Source: Streptomyces graminilatus (GTDB taxonomy: Bacteria > Actinomycetota > Actinomycetes > Streptomycetales > Streptomycetaceae). From it: a stretch of DNA of 64,000 nucleotides. Of this stretch, positions 5,316 through 60,329 are shown one piece after another. The translations under genes and the position numbers were made by a program. The notes beneath the pieces are model-generated. The model worked only from the letters and a program-made list of their open reading frames with translations. It had not been told where the DNA came from and did not search any database. The stretch spans positions 1 to 64,000 of the forward strand of contig NZ_LIQQ01000164.1 of assembly GCF_001418565.1 (NCBI RefSeq). The letters are read 5' to 3'. The first letter of the stretch is position 1. Each line of letters starts with the position of its first letter.

Positions 5316-5680
5316 GCCACAGCTCCCCGGTAATTGGCTCCGGAATTCACCATCTCGGGGCGGCGTGGATCCGCGACGTTCACACGCCCAAGAAAGTTGG
5401 AGGAATTCCCCAGAGTTTTGTTCCATCTATCTGAACCACAGGGCTTCTCTGTCCCAACTGTGCCGAATGACCCGCCAGTTGGTAGGAAACAGAAAAATTT
5501 CACATATGTAGATACCCCTTCACCACTCACCCGCATCGAAAGATCCATCAGCTATAATCCCGCCATTGTGTGTACTAGATCCGACCAAAACAGCGCGTTG
5601 ACAAATACTTAGAAGTACAGACCGCCGCGTCTTTCGACAGTCCCCGCTTCCCGTGCAGTACCGGTCCAAACACCGAGCAG
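5316..5680. promoter_or_regulatory. relatively AT-rich regulatory region upstream of the first LAL gene
   Basis: These 365 bases have no supported gene and are clearly less GC-rich than the surroundings, especially 5480-5620. They contain a perfect TATAAT (5553-5558) without a convincing -35, a TTGACA (5598-5603) without a matching -10, and the palindrome TACTT-AG-AAGTA (5606-5617) about 65 bases before the LAL start. The composition and palindrome suggest a promoter/operator region controlling the regulator genes; the exact start of transcription cannot be placed. Confidence 0.45.
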
Positions 5681-8557
5681 ATGTCCGTCCCCCACAGAAC
5701 ATTCGGTGACATCGTGAACCTCGCCCTGGCCGCTCCGGCCCATGCGTTCCCGACCGGGGCAGAGGCCCCGGCAGCACCACTCGAAGGCAGGGTGTCCGAG
5801 CTCTCGGCGCTGATCGACCGCATCCCCCGAAACGGCGCCGGACCCGCGTCGGCGGTACTGGTGACAGCCTCCGCCGGCATGGGACGCAGCGCCCTGCTGC
5901 GGGCCTTCTGCGGGACCGCCGCGTCCAGGGCGTCGGTGCTGCGCACCGGCCCGCTCGACGGCACGTGGTACGCGTCCGGCGGCGCCGAACGCTCCGGAGC
6001 ACGACTGCCGCCGCACGACGGCTCGTTGTCGGCGTTCCGGCTGCACCGGGCGGTGAGCGACCTCGCGCGCCACGGCCCGGTGGTCCTCGCCGTGGACGAC
6101 GCACACCTGTGTCGTCCGCACACCCTGCACGGCGTGGGCCATGTGCTGCGCAGATCCGCCGGGCTTCCCCTGCTGGCGGTCGTCACCATGCCCACGGTCG
6201 CGGCCGTAGAGGAGCCGCCCGCCGTCACCGCGCTGCTGGCCCAGCACGCCTGGACCACCGTGGAACTGGCACCGCTCGCCGCGCGCGATGTCGCCCGGGT
6301 CCTGGCCCGACGGCTGGGCGGGCTGCCCGAACCGGCCCTGCTGCACCGGTGCCTGGAGTACTCCAGGGGCGTTCCCGCCGCCGTCCATGCCTTCGCCGAC
6401 CGGCACGGGGCGACAGATGCCGACCTGCGCGGTGACATGTGTTCAGCGACCGGACGGGAGCCGGAACCGGCGCACGGCAGGCGGGCCGGGCCCGATTCAC
6501 TGCCCCGTTCGGCGTCGGCGGTACTGTCCGCGGTGGCCGCGCTGGGGTCCGCCGAACCGGAGTTGGTGAGCGAGCTCATCCAGTTGCCGCTGCCGACCGT
6601 ACGGCGTGTCCTGGACCGCCTCGCCGAACTGCGGGCGCTGCCCCCCGAAGGCTCGGGAGAGGGGTCCGGTGACGCCGCGCGTCCCTTGCCGCACGGCGTG
6701 CCGGCCGACGATCTCGTCCCTCTCCGTCCCCGCGCCGCCCGGCTGCTGGAGGACAGGGGCCGGCCGCCTGCCGAGGTCGCCGAGGTCCTGCTGCGCATCG
6801 GGCACGGGGCACAACCGTGGATGCTGGAAACGCTCTACAGCGCGGCCCTGGACACGGGTTCGGACGCCCGTGCCATGCGCTATCTCTCCCACGCGCTGGA
6901 CATCGGCGCCGGGCAGGACGCCCGCGTGGTACGGCGGATCCGCGCCCGGCTCGCGGAGATCCTGTCCACCACCGCGCCCGACCTCGCCCTCCCCCATCTG
7001 AGCGCGCTGCTCATGACGAGCGACGACGGCCACGAAGCCGCCGGCATCGCGTCGCGGTACGCCGACACCCTCATCGGACTCGGCCGTGGCGAGGAAGCGG
7101 CCCGGCTGCTCGCCCGCGTTCTGGACCACCCGGCCGGATCCACGACGACGCCCGTCGCCGAAAGGCACAGACCCGAACTGGAAGCCGCCCTGCTGCTGAG
7201 CGGAACGCTGGGACGGGACACTCTGCGCTGGGTCAGAGAGCGCTCTCAGACGGCCACCGCTCCCACCGACGACGCTCCGGGCCATCACCGGCTCCAACTG
7301 GCGCGGGCCGCCCTGGCCGTGCTCGGCGGCCGGCCCGCGAACGTACTCACCGAGGACTGCGCACGGGCGGCGGCGACACCGCCGGGCACCCCGCTGGCCG
7401 ACCTGACGCTGACCGCGTCCGCCCTCGTCGCACACTTCACCGACGACGACACCGGGGCGCTCGACGCCCTGGACCGGATCCTGTGCCGCCCCGCGCCCCA
7501 GGGCCCCGGCCCGGTCCGCGCCAAGGCACTGATGGTCCGCGCGCTGGTGCTGTCCGGCACGGGCGATCTGCCCGCCGCGGAAGACGACAGCCGTCAGGCC
7601 CTGGAAAACGAGCGGTTCGGCGAACTGGCGGCCGGCCCGGTCACCACGTCGGCACAAGCGCCGGGCCCCCGGCCGGAGGCGACCGCTCCCGCCGTCCTCT
7701 TCGCCTACGTACTGGCCCAGCGCGGCAGGGTGGCCGCCGCCGAGTCCATGCTCTCCCAGGTGGGCCGCGCCGATCTGGAACCACTGTTCTACGTCCACCC
7801 CCTGTACTGGTGGGCCCGGGCCGCGATCCGGCGCGCCCGTGGCGACGCACACGGCGCCCTGGTCGCGCTGCGCGCCGGTGGCCGCTGTCTGCCCCCGGGC
7901 GGTGCCGCGTCGCCGGTCGTGCTGCCGTGGTGGCTGGAGGCGGCCGACATCCTGACCGAACTGGGCCGGCCGGACGAGGCACGGCACATCGCCGCGCAGG
8001 GCGGCATGTCGGCCGACCGCTGGGGCACACCGCGCGGTGCCGGACTGGCTCTGCTGGCCCGCGGACTGGCCACCCCCGGAAGGGCGGGACACCGGCTTCT
8101 CGACGACGCGTGCGCCCAACTCGCCGAGTCACGCGCCCGGCCGCTCTGGGCGCGCGCCGAGTACGCCCTGGGCTCGGCCCTCCTCGACGCGGGCGACCCC
8201 AGAGGCGCCCGGACCCGGCTGCGGACCGCGCTGGACCTGATGACCGGGTGCGGTGCGGGGAACGCCGCCGAGGGGATCCGGCTCCGGCTCGCCCGGGCGG
8301 GCGGTCGGCCGCGCCGGCTCACCGGCCGCCCGGGCGACGCCCTGACGGAACGTGAACGCCGGGTCGCCGCACTGGCGATGGCGGGCCGCTCCAACCGGGA
8401 GATAGCCGGGAGCCTGTACATCACGCGGCGTACGGTCGAACTGCACCTGACCAACGCCTACCAGAAGCTCGGCGTGAGCGGCCGGGAAGAACTGGGAGGG
8501 GTGCTGCGCGCCTCGCACACGAAGCTCACGTCCCGACCGGGTGGTGAGGAACGCTGA
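5681..8557 (+). CDS. LAL-family LuxR transcriptional regulator (first of three)
   Basis: A 958-residue large ATP-binding regulator of the LuxR family. The N-terminal ATPase region has a P-loop-like ASAGMGRSALL (R69 where the classical motif has Lys) and a Walker B-like VVLAVDDAHL near residue 135. A long helical repeat region follows (about 350-860). The C-terminal LuxR helix-turn-helix (about 888-945) carries LTERERRVAALAMAGRSNRE and TRRTVELHL. Such proteins commonly act as pathway-specific activators of macrolide-type PKS clusters. The start has only a weak ribosome binding site. Its TGA overlaps the apparent CTG start of the next gene by four bases (CTGA, 8554-8557), implying coupled translation. 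Confidence 0.9.
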   Translation: MSVPHRTFGDIVNLALAAPAHAFPTGAEAPAAPLEGRVSELSALIDRIPRNGAGPASAVLVTASAGMGRSALLRAFCGTAASRASVLRTGPLDGTWYASGGAERSGARLPPHDGSLSAFRLHRAVSDLARHGPVVLAVDDAHLCRPHTLHGVGHVLRRSAGLPLLAVVTMPTVAAVEEPPAVTALLAQHAWTTVELAPLAARDVARVLARRLGGLPEPALLHRCLEYSRGVPAAVHAFADRHGATDADLRGDMCSATGREPEPAHGRRAGPDSLPRSASAVLSAVAALGSAEPELVSELIQLPLPTVRRVLDRLAELRALPPEGSGEGSGDAARPLPHGVPADDLVPLRPRAARLLEDRGRPPAEVAEVLLRIGHGAQPWMLETLYSAALDTGSDARAMRYLSHALDIGAGQDARVVRRIRARLAEILSTTAPDLALPHLSALLMTSDDGHEAAGIASRYADTLIGLGRGEEAARLLARVLDHPAGSTTTPVAERHRPELEAALLLSGTLGRDTLRWVRERSQTATAPTDDAPGHHRLQLARAALAVLGGRPANVLTEDCARAAATPPGTPLADLTLTASALVAHFTDDDTGALDALDRILCRPAPQGPGPVRAKALMVRALVLSGTGDLPAAEDDSRQALENERFGELAAGPVTTSAQAPGPRPEATAPAVLFAYVLAQRGRVAAAESMLSQVGRADLEPLFYVHPLYWWARAAIRRARGDAHGALVALRAGGRCLPPGGAASPVVLPWWLEAADILTELGRPDEARHIAAQGGMSADRWGTPRGAGLALLARGLATPGRAGHRLLDDACAQLAESRARPLWARAEYALGSALLDAGDPRGARTRLRTALDLMTGCGAGNAAEGIRLRLARAGGRPRRLTGRPGDALTERERRVAALAMAGRSNREIAGSLYITRRTVELHLTNAYQKLGVSGREELGGVLRASHTKLTSRPGGEER
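8545..8557 (+). promoter_or_regulatory. ribosome binding site and overlapping CTG start of the second LAL gene
   Basis: GAGGAACG-CTG-A: a GAGGA element is followed about four bases later by CTG, whose last two bases plus A form the stop of the upstream gene. There is no ATG, GTG or TTG in frame between the preceding in-frame stop and GTG 8677, yet the conserved LAL N-terminus (LYGRDTEQAALL) is encoded within that interval. Confidence 0.55.
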
Positions 8558-11169
8558 GTACCACTCCCCACGGCCGCCCGGCACTCTCCGGCCGGCTCCT
8601 GCGGGAGCGGGCCGCCCAGGGCGGTTCCGCTCCGCTGTACGGCCGGGACACCGAACAGGCCGCGCTGCTGCACCTGGTGGCCCGGCTCACCGCGGGCACG
8701 GCCGGCGCGGCGGTGATCCACGGTGCTCCGGGCATCGGCCGCAGTCTGCTGCTGCGCCGCGGGGTGGCCTACGCCCGCGCCTCCGGTGTCGAGGTGCTGA
8801 CCGCGCAGGGCTCGGCTCCCCAGGCCCGCTCTCCCTACGCGTTCGTACGGCAGTTGCGTCCGTCCCTGTCCTCACCGGGGGGCTCGGCACGGGCCGCGGG
8901 GCCGTCGCCCGGGGACGGCTCCGTGCAGGGGTGGGCCCGCGATCTGCTGTCCGGCACGGGGCGGCCGACGCTGCTCGCCCTGGACGATGTGCAGTGGGCG
9001 GACCCGGAGTCGGTGCAGGTCATCAGAACACTGCTGCGGCGCCTGTCCTCGGCGCCGCTCGCGGTGGTGCTGACCGTGACCGGCGCCCGAGGGGAGTTCC
9101 CCGACTCGTGCTCCGCGCTCGTCGACCAGGCCGCCGCGCTCCAGGACGGCCGGGGTCTCGTCCTGGAACTCCGTCCGTTGGACACCTCGGAGGTCCGCGC
9201 CCTGTGCACCACCGCGGGGCCGGCCGCCGCCGGGCCGACGGACGACGGCTGGGCGGAGACGGCCGAACTCAGCCACGGCAACCCCTGGATACTGCGGCGA
9301 GCCATGGACGAACTGCGCCGGGAGCCCGGCGAGGTGCCGGCCACCGGGCTCCCGGCCGCCCGTGGCCGCGCGATCACCGCGGCGCTGGCGGATCGGGCGG
9401 CCGAGTCGTCCCTGAGGCTGGCTCCGGAACCGCTCGCGCTGCTGCGCGGCCTCGCGGTGTGCCAGGGGCTGATCGCGGTGGACCAGGTCGCCACCCTGGT
9501 CGGCCTGCCCGAGACCGACCTACCGCGATCATTACGGGAACTGAGGGTTCATCACCTGATCGACAACGGCGATCCGCCTCGTCCGTGGACGACCCGCGCG
9601 GCATCGGTGCTGGTGGGTGTGGACAGCACCGAACGCAAACGGCTCTATGTGACGGCGGCCCGCTGGGCACACCGCTGCGGAGCCGACGAAACGGAACTGG
9701 CCGCGCTGCTGCTGGCCACGGTGCCGATGGGGGACCCCTGGGTGCCGTGGGTGCTGCGCCGCACCGCCCGCGCCCTGCGCACCGGCGGGCGGTATGCCGA
9801 GGCGGCCGAACTGCTGGAGCGGGCGCTGCGCGAACCGCTCGACACCACCGAGCGCGCCGCGGTGCTGCTGGAGGCGGCCGAGGTGTACGCGCTGACCGCG
9901 CCCGAAGCGGCGGACCGCAGGATCGCCGAGATACTCGAAGGCCCCGGCACATGTCCCGCGGTGCGCACCGCGGCAGTGGACCTGATGCTGGCCCGCTCGG
10001 AACCACAAGGCGGGCCCGGCACGATGGCGGGGTCCTACGGCCCCGGAGACACGGCGGGCGCGTACGGGCTCGGAGGCACGGCAGGCGCGTACGGGCTCGG
10101 AGGCACAGCGGGCGCCCATGGAATCGGAGGCACAGCGGGCGCCCATGGAATCGGAGGCACAGCGGGCGCCCATGGAATCGGGGGCACAGCGGGCGGCTAT
10201 GAGGTCGGGGGCACGCGGTCACCGCGGGGGGCGCGGGACACGGGTCCCGGTCGGCTCCGGTCCGGAGGCGACCACCCGGCGGCCCTCGCCGATGCCGCCT
10301 GGCTGCGGGCCGTGCGGGGCGACGACGCGGACGCCGTGACGGATCTGGCCCGGCGGGTCCTCGACGCGCCGCTGGAGGGAGCGCTGCACCCACGGCTCAC
10401 CGCCTGCCGCGTACTCGCGTTCGCCGACGCGCACACCGAGGCACTCCGTGCGCTGGACACCACGCTCGCCGAGGCGGCGGGACGGGGAAGTCCGTCACAG
10501 GTCGGGCTGGGCCTGATGCTGCGGGCCAATCTGAGCCTCAGGGCGGGCGACCCGGACACCGCCGCCCATGATCTCGCCGCCTGCGAGTCCGTCGTACCGC
10601 CCGCGGTGTGGCATCCCACCCGGCTCACCCTGCTGCGGGCGATGCAGATCCGGCTGCTGGTCGCGCAGGAACGTTACGACGAGGCCGGGCAGGTGGCCGG
10701 TGAAGCGCTGCCGCCCGGGGTCGAGTTGAGCGCCCCGTGGACCTATCTGCTCTACGCCCGCGCTCAGTTGTCGCTCTGTCAGGGACGACCCGGCCCGGCA
10801 CTGGGCGACGCCGAGGAGTGCGGCCGTCGCCTGGCCGCCATGGGGTGGGTCAATCCGGCGCTGCTGCCCTGGCGTTCGCTCGCGGCGGTGGCCCATCGGG
10901 CGTGCGGCGAAGGCCCGCGGTCGGCCGATCTGTTCGCCGAGGAGCTGCGGCTGGCCGAGCGCTGGGGCACGGACTCCGCACTCGGCTGGGCCGAGCTGCG
11001 CCGGGGCCTGTCCCTTCCGGGGCCCCACTCCACTCGGCCCGCCGAACGGGCGTTACGGCGGTTAGGCCCGAGGGCCCGCCGTTTCATACGGGCCGTCGTC
11101 GCCCGCGAGACGGCCGGACTGTCCGGCGGTTCCCGCACCGGGAACGGCCACCCGCCGGCCACGGCGTGA
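8554..11169 (+). CDS. LAL-type ATPase/helical-repeat protein lacking the LuxR DNA-binding domain
   Basis: About 871 residues from the apparent CTG start at 8554 (830 from GTG 8677). The upstream start is preferred because residues 28-40 (LYGRDTEQAALLH) match the start of the LAL ATPase module and would be lost from the GTG. The P-loop is GAPGIGRSLLL (R63 instead of Lys) and the Walker B-like LLALDDVQWADPES follows. Helical repeats run to the C-terminus, which ends in RRFIRAVVARETAG and a short tail; no LuxR helix-turn-helix is present. Six 27-bp repeats (10045-10206) add a Gly-Thr-Ala-rich insert. Three TTA codons (9532, 11053, 11062) make it a bldA candidate. Without its own DNA-binding domain it may act through the flanking LAL proteins, or be a decaying paralogue. 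Confidence 0.8.
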   Translation: MSTTPHGRPALSGRLLRERAAQGGSAPLYGRDTEQAALLHLVARLTAGTAGAAVIHGAPGIGRSLLLRRGVAYARASGVEVLTAQGSAPQARSPYAFVRQLRPSLSSPGGSARAAGPSPGDGSVQGWARDLLSGTGRPTLLALDDVQWADPESVQVIRTLLRRLSSAPLAVVLTVTGARGEFPDSCSALVDQAAALQDGRGLVLELRPLDTSEVRALCTTAGPAAAGPTDDGWAETAELSHGNPWILRRAMDELRREPGEVPATGLPAARGRAITAALADRAAESSLRLAPEPLALLRGLAVCQGLIAVDQVATLVGLPETDLPRSLRELRVHHLIDNGDPPRPWTTRAASVLVGVDSTERKRLYVTAARWAHRCGADETELAALLLATVPMGDPWVPWVLRRTARALRTGGRYAEAAELLERALREPLDTTERAAVLLEAAEVYALTAPEAADRRIAEILEGPGTCPAVRTAAVDLMLARSEPQGGPGTMAGSYGPGDTAGAYGLGGTAGAYGLGGTAGAHGIGGTAGAHGIGGTAGAHGIGGTAGGYEVGGTRSPRGARDTGPGRLRSGGDHPAALADAAWLRAVRGDDADAVTDLARRVLDAPLEGALHPRLTACRVLAFADAHTEALRALDTTLAEAAGRGSPSQVGLGLMLRANLSLRAGDPDTAAHDLAACESVVPPAVWHPTRLTLLRAMQIRLLVAQERYDEAGQVAGEALPPGVELSAPWTYLLYARAQLSLCQGRPGPALGDAEECGRRLAAMGWVNPALLPWRSLAAVAHRACGEGPRSADLFAEELRLAERWGTDSALGWAELRRGLSLPGPHSTRPAERALRRLGPRARRFIRAVVARETAGLSGGSRTGNGHPPATA
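10045..10206 (+). repeat. 27-bp tandem repeat, six units, inside the second LAL gene
   Basis: Six in-frame 27-bp units encode a nine-residue repeat of the type GGTAGAHGI / GGTAGAYGL. The middle three units are nearly identical at DNA level, indicating recent slippage expansion. The insert falls between helical repeats and would form a flexible Gly-rich loop. Confidence 0.92.
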
Positions 11170-11238
11170 CCTTGTCCCCCACGACGTCCCCACGTCCCCA
11201 TCCCCACCGTTCGACCGAATTGCAAGGAGGCCGTCGGC

Positions 11239-14100
11239 ATGTTGTTGGAGCGGCAGAACGAATTGTCAACGGCGGCGGAGGCCCTGCGGTTCGCCGCGCA
11301 GGGCAACGGGTCACTCGTCGTGATCAGCGGACCGCCGGGCATCGGCAGATCGGCCCTGCTCACGGAGATCGGCGAACTGGCCGACCGTTCACCCGCCGAC
11401 GCGGCGACGACTCGGCGCCCACTGGTGATGCGCGCCTACGCCGCTCCGGCCGAGCGCGGCTTCCCGTTCGGTGTGGCACGGCAACTGCTGGAGCCGGCGC
11501 TGAAGTCGGCCCCGGGCAGATGGACCTCGGGTCCCGCACGGCCCGCGCCGGCCTTCCTCACCGCGGACCCCGAGCCGCCCCAGCAGCACGGCGCGACGAC
11601 CGTACGCGCCCTGCTGGCTCTGGTGGAGAACATGAGCCACGACCGCACACCGGTGCTGCTCGTCGACGACCTGCACTGGGCGGACGCCGCATCACTGGAC
11701 TGGCTCGACCAGTTGGTCCAGCACGCGGCGCACTGGGGAGTCCTGGTCGCCGTGACCATGTGCGAGGGGGAGTCCGACGCGGCGCCCGCACCTGGCACGG
11801 CGATCGCCGCCGCCGCCGAGCACACGCTGCTGCCGGCACCGCTCGGCACCGCGGCGGTCCACGAACTGATACTGGAGCACCTGGGCCTGCCGGCCGATCC
11901 GCAGTTCACGAACGCCTGCCATGACGCGGCCCGCGGCAATCCGCTGTATCTGATGTCGCTGCTGCGGCAGTGCCAGGCGGACGGTGTCGCACCGGTGGCG
12001 GCCGACGCGCCCGCGGTCGCCACGCTGGTGCCTCCCGCACTGCGCCGACGGCTGCTGCTGTGTCTGCGCGAGCAGTCGCCGGCGGTGCTGGCGGTGGCCC
12101 GGGCGCTGATGGTGCTCGGGGACGACGCCGAACCCCAGGTGGTGGGCGAACTCGCCGGACTGGATCCGGTGGATCTGGACGACAGTCTGCGGCGGCTGCG
12201 CCGACTGGCGCTGCTGGGCCGGGACGACCCCCTGCGGCTGGCTCACCGGGCCGTGCACGAGGTGGTCGACGAGGCCACACCGCCGAGCGAACGCAACCGG
12301 CTGCATGTGCGGTCCGCCGCTCTGCTGCACTATCGGGGCTGTCCGCCGGAGCGGGTCGCCGGTCATCTGCTGGCGGCGACCGTCCCGTTGGACGACGGCG
12401 CGGTGGCGACGCTACGGCGGGCCGCCGAGGCGGCCGTGCTGCGGGGCGACCCCGAGGCCGCCGCCCGCTGTCTGCGCCGGGCGCTGCGGGACAGTGCGCC
12501 GTACAGCGAGGAACGAGCCGGTCTGCTGGTGGAACTGGCCACCGTGGAACGCAGTTTCGCCCCGTCGGTGGCCGTGCGCCATGTGACCCAGGCGTATCCA
12601 CTGCTGTCCGGGCCCGCCGTCCGGGCCGAGGCGCTGCTCGCGCTCACGCCGATGGCGCCCGGCGCCACACTGCTGTCGTCGGCCGACCTGGTGCGGCAGA
12701 CGGCACGGCAACTCGGGGACCCGCGGGAGCTGCCGCCCGCTCAGCGTCCGCAGGCGCTGCGCCTTCAGGCCCGACTGCACTACCTCAGCGAGAACGATCC
12801 CGCCGCGCTCGCCTCGGCCGTGGACCGGCTGGCCGGCTTGGGCGAGTCGCCGGAGGCCGGGCGCGGAGAGCAGCGGGAGCTGCTCGCCGCGCTGCTGCAC
12901 GCGGCGACGGTGACCGTCGGGGTGCGGGCCGACCGGGCGGGCGCGCTCGCCCGGCGCGTGATGGACCACGAGCCGGCCACCGCCGCGCATGTGCACACGC
13001 TGGTGCCGCTCGTGGTGCCGGTGGCGCTCGCCGCGGATTCGGTCGCGGGGCTGCTGCCCTGGCTGGACACGGCCCTGGCGGACGCGGTGCGCCGGGGCGG
13101 CCGACTGGAACAGTCGGTGATCCTCAGCGAACAGGCGCTGGTGCTGCTCGCGGAGGGCCTGCTCGACGCGGCACGGGAGCGTGCGGTGCGGGCCTGCTCG
13201 GTCGTCGGGCCGGACGAGATGAGCACGCTCTCGGCGATCGCCCTGGTCATGGTGGCACTGCGGACCCGGGAGCCGGAACTGGTCACTTCCCTGCCGGACC
13301 GGTTGCGGGCCTTCGAGGACAACTGCGAGCTGGCCGCGGTCCGCACCCTGGTCCGGGGTATGGAGGCGGAGCAGCGGCAGGAGCCCGCCGTCGCGCTGGA
13401 GCATTTCCTCGAATCCGGGTACGCGATGGAGCGGGCGGGATGGACCAATCCGGTGCTGGCCCCCTCGGCGTACTGGGCGGCACGGATGCTGCACCGGATG
13501 GGTGAGTCGGCCCGTGCCGAGGAGTTGTGCGAGCGGCATGTGGAGCGGGCGCGGCTCTGGGGTGCGCCCGCCGCGCTGGGCCGCGCGCTGGCGTTGCGGG
13601 CCACGGTGCGGGGCGGGTCGCCGGGGGTGCTGCGGGAGGCGGCCGCCGTCCTGGAGGAGTCCGCCGATCTGCGCACCCGTGCGTCCGTACTGGTACGCCT
13701 CGCGGAGGCGGTGGCAGCGCGTCACCCGGCCGAGGCGGAGGCCGCGCTGCGTACGGCGTACGAGCTGGCGGTGCGGTGCGGGGCGTCCCAAATCGCCGCC
13801 CGGGCCCAGGAGTTGCTGGGGCCGCGGACGGTGGGTGCGCCCGCTCGGACGCACCTGACGTCCGCGGAGGGGTTGGTGGCCCGGATGGCGGTGCGTGGCC
13901 TGACCAACCAGGCCATCGCCGACGCCCTCGGTGTCTCCAGGCGCGCGGTGGAGAAACATCTCACGAGCTGCTACCGCAAGATGTCGGCCTCCGGTCGCTC
14001 GGGACTCGCCGCCGCTCTTGAGGATGCGGGCCTCTTCGACTCGGCGGATGCCCCGGAGCCGCCGTCCGCCGGGGAGGAGCAGCCCCAGGGGGCGGCCTGA
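11239..14100 (+). CDS. LAL-family LuxR transcriptional regulator (third of three)
   Basis: A 953-residue LAL regulator. AAGGAGG at 11223-11229 fixes the ATG at 11239. P-loop SGPPGIGRSALL (R37 in place of Lys) and Walker B-like VLLVDDLHWADAAS (about 138-151) define the ATPase region. A helical repeat region follows, and a C-terminal LuxR domain (about 873-935) contains GLTNQAIADALGVSRRAVEK and a recognition helix. A Gly/Glu/Pro-rich tail ends the protein. It is separated from the preceding LAL gene by 69 bases and lies in the same orientation, so the three may form one regulatory operon. It is probably a pathway activator for the PKS genes; direct targets are not visible. Confidence 0.9.
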   Translation: MLLERQNELSTAAEALRFAAQGNGSLVVISGPPGIGRSALLTEIGELADRSPADAATTRRPLVMRAYAAPAERGFPFGVARQLLEPALKSAPGRWTSGPARPAPAFLTADPEPPQQHGATTVRALLALVENMSHDRTPVLLVDDLHWADAASLDWLDQLVQHAAHWGVLVAVTMCEGESDAAPAPGTAIAAAAEHTLLPAPLGTAAVHELILEHLGLPADPQFTNACHDAARGNPLYLMSLLRQCQADGVAPVAADAPAVATLVPPALRRRLLLCLREQSPAVLAVARALMVLGDDAEPQVVGELAGLDPVDLDDSLRRLRRLALLGRDDPLRLAHRAVHEVVDEATPPSERNRLHVRSAALLHYRGCPPERVAGHLLAATVPLDDGAVATLRRAAEAAVLRGDPEAAARCLRRALRDSAPYSEERAGLLVELATVERSFAPSVAVRHVTQAYPLLSGPAVRAEALLALTPMAPGATLLSSADLVRQTARQLGDPRELPPAQRPQALRLQARLHYLSENDPAALASAVDRLAGLGESPEAGRGEQRELLAALLHAATVTVGVRADRAGALARRVMDHEPATAAHVHTLVPLVVPVALAADSVAGLLPWLDTALADAVRRGGRLEQSVILSEQALVLLAEGLLDAARERAVRACSVVGPDEMSTLSAIALVMVALRTREPELVTSLPDRLRAFEDNCELAAVRTLVRGMEAEQRQEPAVALEHFLESGYAMERAGWTNPVLAPSAYWAARMLHRMGESARAEELCERHVERARLWGAPAALGRALALRATVRGGSPGVLREAAAVLEESADLRTRASVLVRLAEAVAARHPAEAEAALRTAYELAVRCGASQIAARAQELLGPRTVGAPARTHLTSAEGLVARMAVRGLTNQAIADALGVSRRAVEKHLTSCYRKMSASGRSGLAAALEDAGLFDSADAPEPPSAGEEQPQGAA

Positions 14101-59099: not shown

Positions 59100-60329
59100 T
59101 CAGCGGCCGTCCGCGCGCGACCCCGTCAGCGGTGGTCCCACCGGCTCGCCCGTCCATACGGCGCCGCTCTCCACCAGGGGCCGCAGTTGCTGGGCGGCGC
59201 GGGGCAGGTTGACGGCGACGGCGCCGCGCACCCGGTCCCCGGCGCAGTGGACGGCGGTGAACTTCCGTTCCGCGGGGCTGCCTTCGACGACATGGCAGCG
59301 GTCGGTTCCCGCCACCTCCCCGAACACCTGGACCTTGAGGTCGTGTTGGTCGGTCCAGAAGTAGGGCAGTGGTGCGACGGGCCGGGCGCCGCTGCCGGCG
59401 AGGAGGTTGCGGGCGACGGCGATGGCCTGCTCGGTCGCCTGCGTACGGTGCTCGAACCGGCGGTGGTTCCCCGTGCGCGGGTCGGGCAGGCTCGCGACGT
59501 CACCAGCGGCCCAGACACCGGGGTTCGCCCGGCCCAGCGTGTCGCAGACGACACCGTCATCGACGCGGAGGCCGCTGCCCCGCAGCCACTCGGTGTTGGG
59601 CAGCGACCCGGTGGCGACGAGCACGACGTCCGCCGCCAGCAGGGTCCCGTCGGCCAGTCGTACGCCGGTGACGGCGCCGTCCGCGCTCTCCACCCCGGTC
59701 ACCCGGCCCTGTCTGACGCGCAGCCCGAGTTCACGGTGGACGGCGGCGATCAGTCCGGCCGCCTGCGGTCCGATCAGGCCGAGCAGCGGTATCGGTTCGG
59801 CGCTGACCAGGGTGACGTCGGCGCCCGAGGCTCGGGCGGCGACAGCCGCCTCGGTGCCGAGCAGACCGGCCCCTGCCACCACCAGTCGCGGCCCGCCCGC
59901 GAGCGCCTCGCGCAGGGCGAGGGCGTCGTCGAGGGTGCGCAGCGCATGGACGCCGGCCGGTCCGTCGTCCCCGGGAAGCCGCCGGGGCCGTACGCCGGTG
60001 GCGACGACGACCGCGTCGGCGGCCAGCCGGGTGCCGTCGGCGAGTTCGACCACGCGGGCCGAGCGGTCCAGCCGGGTCACGGAGACGCCCAGGCGTAACT
60101 CGATGCCGAGACGGTCGTAGACGTCGGGCCTGCGCAGCCGGATCCGGTCGGGGTCCCACTGGCCGGAGAGGATCTGCTTGGACAACGGGGGCCGGTCGTA
60201 CGGAAGATGGGGTTCGGCGCCGACGAGGGTGAGCCGACCGGCGTAGCCTTCACGCCTCAGGGTCTCGGCGGTGACCGACCCGGCGACTCCCGCGCCCACG
60301 ACGACGATCTCCTGCGGGCCTGTCGTCAA
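59100..60329 (-). CDS. FAD-dependent ferredoxin reductase (P450 electron-transfer partner)
   Basis: 409 residues from TTG 60329 (LTTGPQEIVVVGAG). The TTG overlaps the rmlB stop as TTGA, and GGAGGT lies six bases upstream, so it is preferred over the in-frame ATG at 60365 inside rmlB. The FAD motif GAGVAGS near residue 11, the NAD(P)H motif GAGLLGTEAA near 150 and the ATG/GDVA segments near the second FAD contact identify a rubredoxin/putidaredoxin-reductase-like flavoprotein. Such enzymes pass electrons from NAD(P)H to a ferredoxin and on to a cytochrome P450. The 3Fe-4S ferredoxin at 62469 is the obvious partner; no P450 gene lies in the window. Confidence 0.9.
   Translation of the reverse strand: MTTGPQEIVVVGAGVAGSVTAETLRREGYAGRLTLVGAEPHLPYDRPPLSKQILSGQWDPDRIRLRRPDVYDRLGIELRLGVSVTRLDRSARVVELADGTRLAADAVVVATGVRPRRLPGDDGPAGVHALRTLDDALALREALAGGPRLVVAGAGLLGTEAAVAARASGADVTLVSAEPIPLLGLIGPQAAGLIAAVHRELGLRVRQGRVTGVESADGAVTGVRLADGTLLAADVVLVATGSLPNTEWLRGSGLRVDDGVVCDTLGRANPGVWAAGDVASLPDPRTGNHRRFEHRTQATEQAIAVARNLLAGSGARPVAPLPYFWTDQHDLKVQVFGEVAGTDRCHVVEGSPAERKFTAVHCAGDRVRGAVAVNLPRAAQQLRPLVESGAVWTGEPVGPPLTGSRADGR

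Follow-up and report, generated by a model that had tools for sequence, protein, structure and literature searches.

A CTG codon overlapping the upstream stop codon as the predicted start of the LAL2 gene in Streptomyces graminilatus

CTG has been reported as the start codon of some bacterial genes. In a 64,000-nucleotide stretch of Streptomyces graminilatus DNA (contig NZ_LIQQ01000164.1, positions 1 to 64,000; here called the window), which holds a tandem run of three large regulator genes on the + strand (LAL1, LAL2 and LAL3), a CTG overlapping the LAL1 stop codon is predicted to start LAL2. For the plasmid gene FIB rep, N-terminal analysis and the loss of function seen when CTG is changed to CTC prove the CTG start; most annotations wrongly place it at a GTG 14 codons further on (PMC11983097). 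The weak CTG is argued to have been selected for low expression; the same paper cites 20 of nearly 85,000 genes as annotated with a CTG start, and Hecht et al. for about 10 times less reporter expression from CTG than from TTG (PMC11983097). LAL2 resembles FIB rep in combining CTG with a good ribosome binding site, in sharing it with related sequences and in the downstream GTG misannotation, whereas the FIB rep start is experimentally proven, with no stop overlap mentioned in the available part of that report, and the LAL2 CTG is deduced by comparison and has relatives with ATG (PMC11983097). In AerR of Rhodobacter capsulatus, CTG with a Shine-Dalgarno sequence also starts a regulator protein, but this internal CTG gives a second, shorter isoform, as proven by fusions, while the LAL2 CTG is the proposed main start (PMC6199135). 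For genQ of the gentamicin cluster, likewise an antibiotic-cluster gene whose published N-terminus was too short, an upstream CTG was considered; it was one of two longer versions cloned, and no overlap or conservation test is described in the available text (PMC4039129). A CTG start has also been proposed for pop of E. coli (PMC7103648), and CTG is among the start codons of a Streptomyces study of small open reading frames (ORFs) (PMC10654065).

The arrangement itself resembles the ATGA overlaps, in which four bases are shared, the Shine-Dalgarno sequence lies in the upstream gene and the products could form a complex, with the difference that LAL2 starts with CTG and that its coupling is predicted (PMC6728339, PMC10666635). 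Reporter experiments in Haloferax and E. coli have demonstrated termination-reinitiation at short overlaps (PMC6728339), and subunits of complexes are over-represented among the products of such gene pairs (PMC10666635). In E. coli, matching mutant initiator tRNAs have enabled reinitiation from non-AUG codons; IF3 disfavours non-canonical starts, and when ribosome recycling factor is lost, ribosomes can reportedly begin at such codons after a stop (PMC2268962). A CUG next to a stop codon is plausible in the light of these findings. Comparative data also include CTG where relatives have ATG or GTG, but there 2 of 61,358 AUG starts switched to CUG among close genomes, while here CTG is found in three species whose LAL2 proteins are about 60% identical (PMC5622118). 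These switch counts, and the misannotation of FIB rep (PMC11983097), agree with the claim of an earlier note on this DNA that CTG starts are rare and missed by annotation. No description of a conserved CTGA start appeared among the matches listed in the open-licence literature on CTG or CUG starts in bacteria and Streptomyces and on CTGA overlaps. Since both CUG starts and coupling through ATGA have precedents, a conserved CTGA start is a variant of them, not a new kind.

The LAL1-LAL2 junction and its orthologs

Read directly from the window, the junction is GGGTGGTGAGGAACG CTG AGT ACC (features in Table 1). The LAL1 stop and the LAL2 CTG overlap by 4 nucleotides, with LAL2 in the -1 frame as in coupled pairs, and the last sense codon of LAL1, CGC (Arg), overlaps the LAL2 start. 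The LAL2 frame opens at 8548, just GGA and ACG preceding the CTG, and the TGA before them makes any in-frame start further upstream impossible. The earliest in-frame ATG, GTG or TTG is GTG 8677, 41 codons after CTG 8554. GAGGA is present at 8546-8550; GGTGA at 8543-8547, followed by GG, is more fully complementary to the 16S tail. The computed duplex between the 16S 3' tail and the 22 bases preceding the CTG amounts to -11.8 kcal/mol, and the Shine-Dalgarno sequence lies within the upstream gene, as is usual, if not obligatory, in coupled pairs. The CTGA overlap, the lack of a normal in-frame start before GTG 8677 and a GAGGA just before the CTG, all claimed by the earlier note, are thus confirmed by this reading, with GGTGA as the better-pairing element.

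Table 1. Features of the LAL locus in the window
Feature	Position	Strand	Basis
LAL1, large ATPase-type regulator with C-terminal LuxR (GerE) helix-turn-helix (HTH)	5681..8557	+	ORF and Pfam
Shine-Dalgarno-like GGTGAGG inside LAL1	8543..8549	+	sequence; duplex with 16S 3' tail
In-frame TGA closing the LAL2 frame upstream	8545..8547	+	frame reading
Proposed LAL2 start codon CTG	8554..8556	+	aligns with ATG (6), GTG (1) and CTG (2) of other close orthologs
LAL1 stop TGA, sharing CTGA with the LAL2 start	8555..8557	+	sequence, ORFs
LAL2, AAA_16 ATPase, 871 codons, without recognised LuxR HTH	8554..11169	+	ORF, Pfam
Initial AAA_16 part (PLYGRDTEQAALLHL), lost with a start at GTG 8677	8632..8676	+	invariant residues, Pfam
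GTG, earliest start permitted by standard annotation; rejected as main start	8677..8679	+	frame, Pfam
LAL3, third LAL regulator, with HTH	11239..14100	+	ORF, Pfam

In a scan of genome contigs for orthologs 265 stretches matched (174 relatives), and the best 80 were taken; four overlapping genome draws gave matches in 5/392, 3/395, 4/393 and 6/394 genomes, the own genome being in the first and fourth. Identical loci were counted once (L084 with L005 over 1,000 bases; L132 with L003 and L133 with L008 over 600 bases; L135 with L011, which has the same translated start and matched identity). This left ten distinct close orthologs, the window included, with NTGA at one alignment column: ATG in six (L003, L004, L006, L007, L008, L087), GTG in one (L085) and CTG in three, namely the window, L005 (Actinobacteria bacterium OK074) and L086, whose genome is a single contig of 10,989,391 bases. 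Ser directly follows the start codon in all ten. In the three CTG genes, which are 58-62% identical in LAL2, the frame opens 6 nucleotides upstream and the earliest ATG, GTG or TTG stands at +111 to +123. The CTG is thus aligned with canonical starts of its orthologs, as expected of a CUG-initiated bacterial gene, and no canonical in-frame start could encode the conserved N-terminus. A sequencing error hiding a normal start is very unlikely, since CTGA is present in two further genomes, one of them the single contig.

A full LAL1 ends in the NTGA in nine of the ten, with a LAL2 start of ATG in six and CTG in three; L085 has no LAL1, just a short open stretch ending there. At this locus (L089, 7443-8454) the stretch, ending ...GGEPR-stop, still overlaps the GTG of LAL2, and a leader ORF may have been retained. 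An eleventh close relative, L134, was kept apart because its upstream junction differs: it has no NTGA at the column and a probable GTG start 21 nucleotides upstream of it, and no LAL1 was found in 1.5 kb upstream, where the sole LAL1 match falls on LAL2 itself. Upstream of LAL2, no LAL1 was found in two close genomes, L085 and, within that 1.5 kb, L134; GTG is the start in the former and the apparent start in the latter. Two relatives were excluded for their greater distance, L011 (46% identity over the matched part) and L136 (38%): L011 has GTG 18 nucleotides past the LAL1 stop, and L136 has no NTGA at the compared place and in-frame ATGs at positions -126 and +30 relative to it. In OK074 the LAL1 tail, upstream of 4007, is expanded by Gly/Ala/Pro-rich repeats right before the CTGA.

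Because NTGA occupies one column in the orthologs, other starts are absent, the N-terminus is conserved and AAA_16 is complete from the CTG, LAL2 very probably starts at CTG 8554, as predicted by comparison. ATG or GTG of the orthologs stands as NTGA at the same column, in line with the earlier note's likening of the CTG to ATGA and GTGA coupled starts; its further claim, that the conserved ATPase N-terminus is encoded before GTG 8677, holds as well, as the invariant residues and the AAA_16 start lie there.

Coding of the LAL2 N-terminus and alternative starts

P27, L28, G30, R31, E34, A36 and L38 are invariant in all ten orthologs and all precede residue 42, the place of GTG 8677. Over codons 14-41, differences among all pairs of the ten are more frequent at position 3 (0.28) than at positions 1 and 2 (0.22, 0.19), and the same holds for the three CTG genes (0.38 vs 0.25 and 0.18); the alignment shows conserved coding of LAL2 from about residue 14 on. 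To the eye, GR..E is similar to the NB-ARC motif hhGRExE, one residue of which contacts ADP in plant NRC1 (PMC6713354). The CTG start predicts the N-terminal peptide STTPHGRPALSGR from Ser2 onwards, and the sequence upstream of GTG 8677 the internal peptide AAQGGSAPLYGR within residues 2-41. An AlphaFold model of residues 1-370 (mean pLDDT, the predicted local distance difference test, 50.5) lends weak support; the best PDB matches of this low-confidence model are AAA+/ORC proteins, with a plant NLR resistosome and Dark lower, and a profile search of solved structures gave no match at E 0.01.

Translation from GTG 8677, with the upstream stretch untranslated and LAL2 a shorter ATPase, is very improbable. 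This GTG is what standard annotation would accept, and downstream in-frame ATGs are likewise found in L005 (+120) and L086 (+111). However, the AAA_16 match covers positions 1-167 with 67.2 bits from the CTG and 18-167 with 47.7 bits from the GTG, a loss of 19.5 bits and 17 profile positions, invariant GR..E included, both forms remaining above the Pfam cut-off of 32.6 bits. A start there also drops residues invariant in 10/10, forfeits the overlap kept by the ATG orthologs and enters the middle of a helix predicted at 30-46 in the low-confidence model.

Still less probable is another non-canonical start. ACG 8551, CTG 8599 and CTG 8635 are all in frame, and either inner CTG would retain the GR..E residues, but in L005 GCG takes the place of ACG 8551, the inner CTGs look like normal codons for Leu (CTG 8635 being the invariant L28), and the ATG and GTG of the orthologs stand at the overlap and not at the inner CTGs. 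About equally remote is -1 frameshifting at the LAL1 stop, which would join LAL1 and LAL2 into a fusion of about 1,830 residues. LAL2 does occupy the -1 frame, and its open frame shares 10 bases with the end of LAL1, but inspection by eye reveals no slippery heptamer ahead of the stop, the sequence there varies among the three CTG genomes (GAA CGC TGA, GGG CGC TGA and GGA CGC TGA), and six orthologs hold a plain ATG at the site. Loss of the start, leaving a decaying or silent LAL2 in the three CTG genomes, is the least credible, for although CUG initiates poorly (PMC4633059, PMC11497404) and LAL2 has no HTH, its open frames of 871, 841 and (up to the contig end in L005) 821 codons survive about 40% amino-acid divergence, changes at position 3 exceed those at positions 1 and 2 from codon 14 on, and the ATG orthologs lack the HTH too.

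Background rate, pairing and history of the CTG

NTGA overlaps were counted in 770,447 bases, for which a home-made gene finder called 542 genes, the numbers being approximate; this DNA comprised the 64 kb window, 230 kb of own-genome contigs, 418 kb of a single-contig relative (G350) and 58 kb of locus DNA of three other relatives. It contained 88 NTGA overlaps of this geometry: 37 ATGA, 29 GTGA, 18 CTGA and 4 TTGA, with mean 16S pairing of -9.4 for ATGA, -8.0 for GTGA and -5.9 kcal/mol for CTGA. Another in-frame ATG, GTG or TTG within -150..+90 accompanies 14/18 CTGA, and also 29/37 ATGA and 27/29 GTGA, so that a nearby start alone is no mark of a non-start. Four CTGA have no normal start nearby, in the window (-11.8), at the L086 locus (L088, -15.3) and at two others (-2.0 and -3.6 kcal/mol); of these, just the window and L088 pair strongly with the 16S tail. 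A second set, 692,915 bases of related loci, held 29 ATGA, 23 GTGA, 1 TTGA and 18 CTGA, one CTGA being without another start in that range (L062 6640, Actinacidiphila cocklensis), with moderate pairing of -7.2 kcal/mol. Neither set picked up the OK074 junction, since LAL2 there extends beyond the end of the contig. CTGA often arises by chance, and the combination of CTGA, a strong Shine-Dalgarno sequence and no alternative start was seen only at the LAL1-LAL2 locus in the surveyed DNA.

The first base of the NTG is the wobble base of the last sense codon of LAL1, which is CGN (Arg) in nine orthologs and GGA in one; where it is CGN, LAL1 accepts any base there. Among 1316 Arg CGN codons of eight window genes, CGG is used 601 times, CGC 468, CGT 181 and CGA 66. 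The rare CGA, which gives ATG, is nevertheless found in 5/9 last Arg codons (binomial 3.4e-5, an overstatement since the sequences are related), so that the wobble base seems to answer to LAL2 initiation and the site looks selected as a start codon. CGC, which gives CTG, accounts for 3/9, about its neutral share.

A tree built from LAL1, LAL2 and LAL3 gives the ATG/GTG group 99/99 support, with the CTG genes as neighbours outside it. The approximately unbiased test does not reject one CTG clade (p-AU 0.164), and over all start states at least three changes are required. Three independent origins of the CTG were rejected, as the tree keeps the CTG genes adjacent and a single clade is compatible with it. 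The simplest reading of the sequences is one old CTG, retained while the LAL2 proteins diverged to 58-62% identity; it may be ancestral to this small group, the root of which rests on one long branch.

Several points speak against CTG 8554 as the start or against selection of it. Codons 2-13 are loosely conserved and have no coding pattern (position 3 0.38 vs 0.46 and 0.32), and the first 30 codons score low for coding (1.9; 3.4 in the ortholog L088). The three CTG sites pair with the 16S tail at -11.8, -12.2 and -15.3 kcal/mol, the six ATG sites at a mean of -10.1 (range -6.5 to -16.7) and the GTG site at -14.5; this stronger pairing is a trend in few, related sequences, and compensation for CTG by the Shine-Dalgarno sequence was set aside on that ground. 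In the three CTG genomes, the wobble bases of aligned Arg CGN codons still agree at 58-59% of sites, so that inheritance explains the shared C, which is no proof of selection; selection for C itself was rejected, the agreement of three Cs reaching p 0.045 only if sites were saturated. In the literature, CTG is a poor leaderless initiator in mycobacteria and is not enriched (0.03%) at the leadered position with a Shine-Dalgarno sequence (PMC4633059), in E. coli, complexes on CUG have lower stability than those on AUG, GUG and UUG (PMC11497404), and in groups of close genomes start switches number 2/61,358 from AUG to CUG and 1/5,080 from GUG to CUG (PMC5622118).

Folding of mRNA around the start gave no usable pattern. 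Nothing was found at Rfam gathering thresholds in window 5500-11500, nor by promoter and terminator patterns in 8300-8800, and plasmid records gave no match at E 1e-40. On the - strand at 60329, a TTGA overlap joins epimerase/dehydratase-like and reductase-like genes with GGAGGTGA upstream; a TTG start is possible there, and a GTG stands 36 nucleotides upstream.

Coupled reinitiation and the LAL proteins

The predicted CTG start is likely used through coupled termination-reinitiation. Ribosomes completing LAL1 would terminate at UGA 8555-8557, stay in place through base pairing between GGUGAGG and the 16S tail and, stepping back one base, start again at the CUG with initiator tRNA, so that LAL2 would begin with formyl-Met instead of Leu; removal of Met would probably expose Ser2. 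The yield of LAL2 from the CTG is presumably modest or low. It is a doubtful, though conceivable, extension that the CUG is kept on purpose as a reinitiation-only start, too weak for free ribosomes and usable by a ribosome that has just terminated. LAL2 would then be synthesised strictly in step with LAL1 and adjusted through IF3 and ribosome recycling, which fits the ATG or CTG starts beside LAL1, GTG where no LAL1 was found and the low-expression argument for FIB rep.

An AAA_16 ATPase domain is present in LAL2 of all ten orthologs, and no GerE match was found in any of them with Pfam at E 0.001 (L005 ending at its contig end). LAL1 matches GerE at 1.2e-14 and AAA_16 weakly (23.0 bits, under the cut-off), and the LuxR HTH is present in both LAL1 and LAL3, which flank the HTH-less LAL2. 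Since no LuxR HTH is recognised, LAL2 is, by its domain matches, a LAL-like ATPase rather than a full LAL regulator. By eye, the middle LALs of the distant clusters L009, L010, L012, L013, L014 and L020 end HTH-like and that of L011 does not. The predicted coupling of LAL2 to an HTH-bearing partner suggests a mixed oligomer, within which the 4-nucleotide coupling would keep LAL2 in ratio with LAL1. LAL2 also contains an in-frame 27-bp tandem repeat of 5.6 copies (10044-10195), coding GGTAGAHGI-like units; the repeat region is absent from eight orthologs and different in L085.

The window also encodes a sugar dehydratase, other sugar genes and a glycosyltransferase, and three very long genes on the - strand are taken for polyketide synthases; given these genes, LAL1-3 probably control an antibiotic-type cluster. 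Annotation that admits only ATG, GTG and TTG shortens LAL2 by 41 codons and hides its coupling. With CTG common to three species and ATG in their relatives, the locus offers a natural test bed for the relaxation of start codon choice by termination-reinitiation, and the case of LAL2 suggests that NTGA overlaps of GC-rich genomes be screened for CTG.

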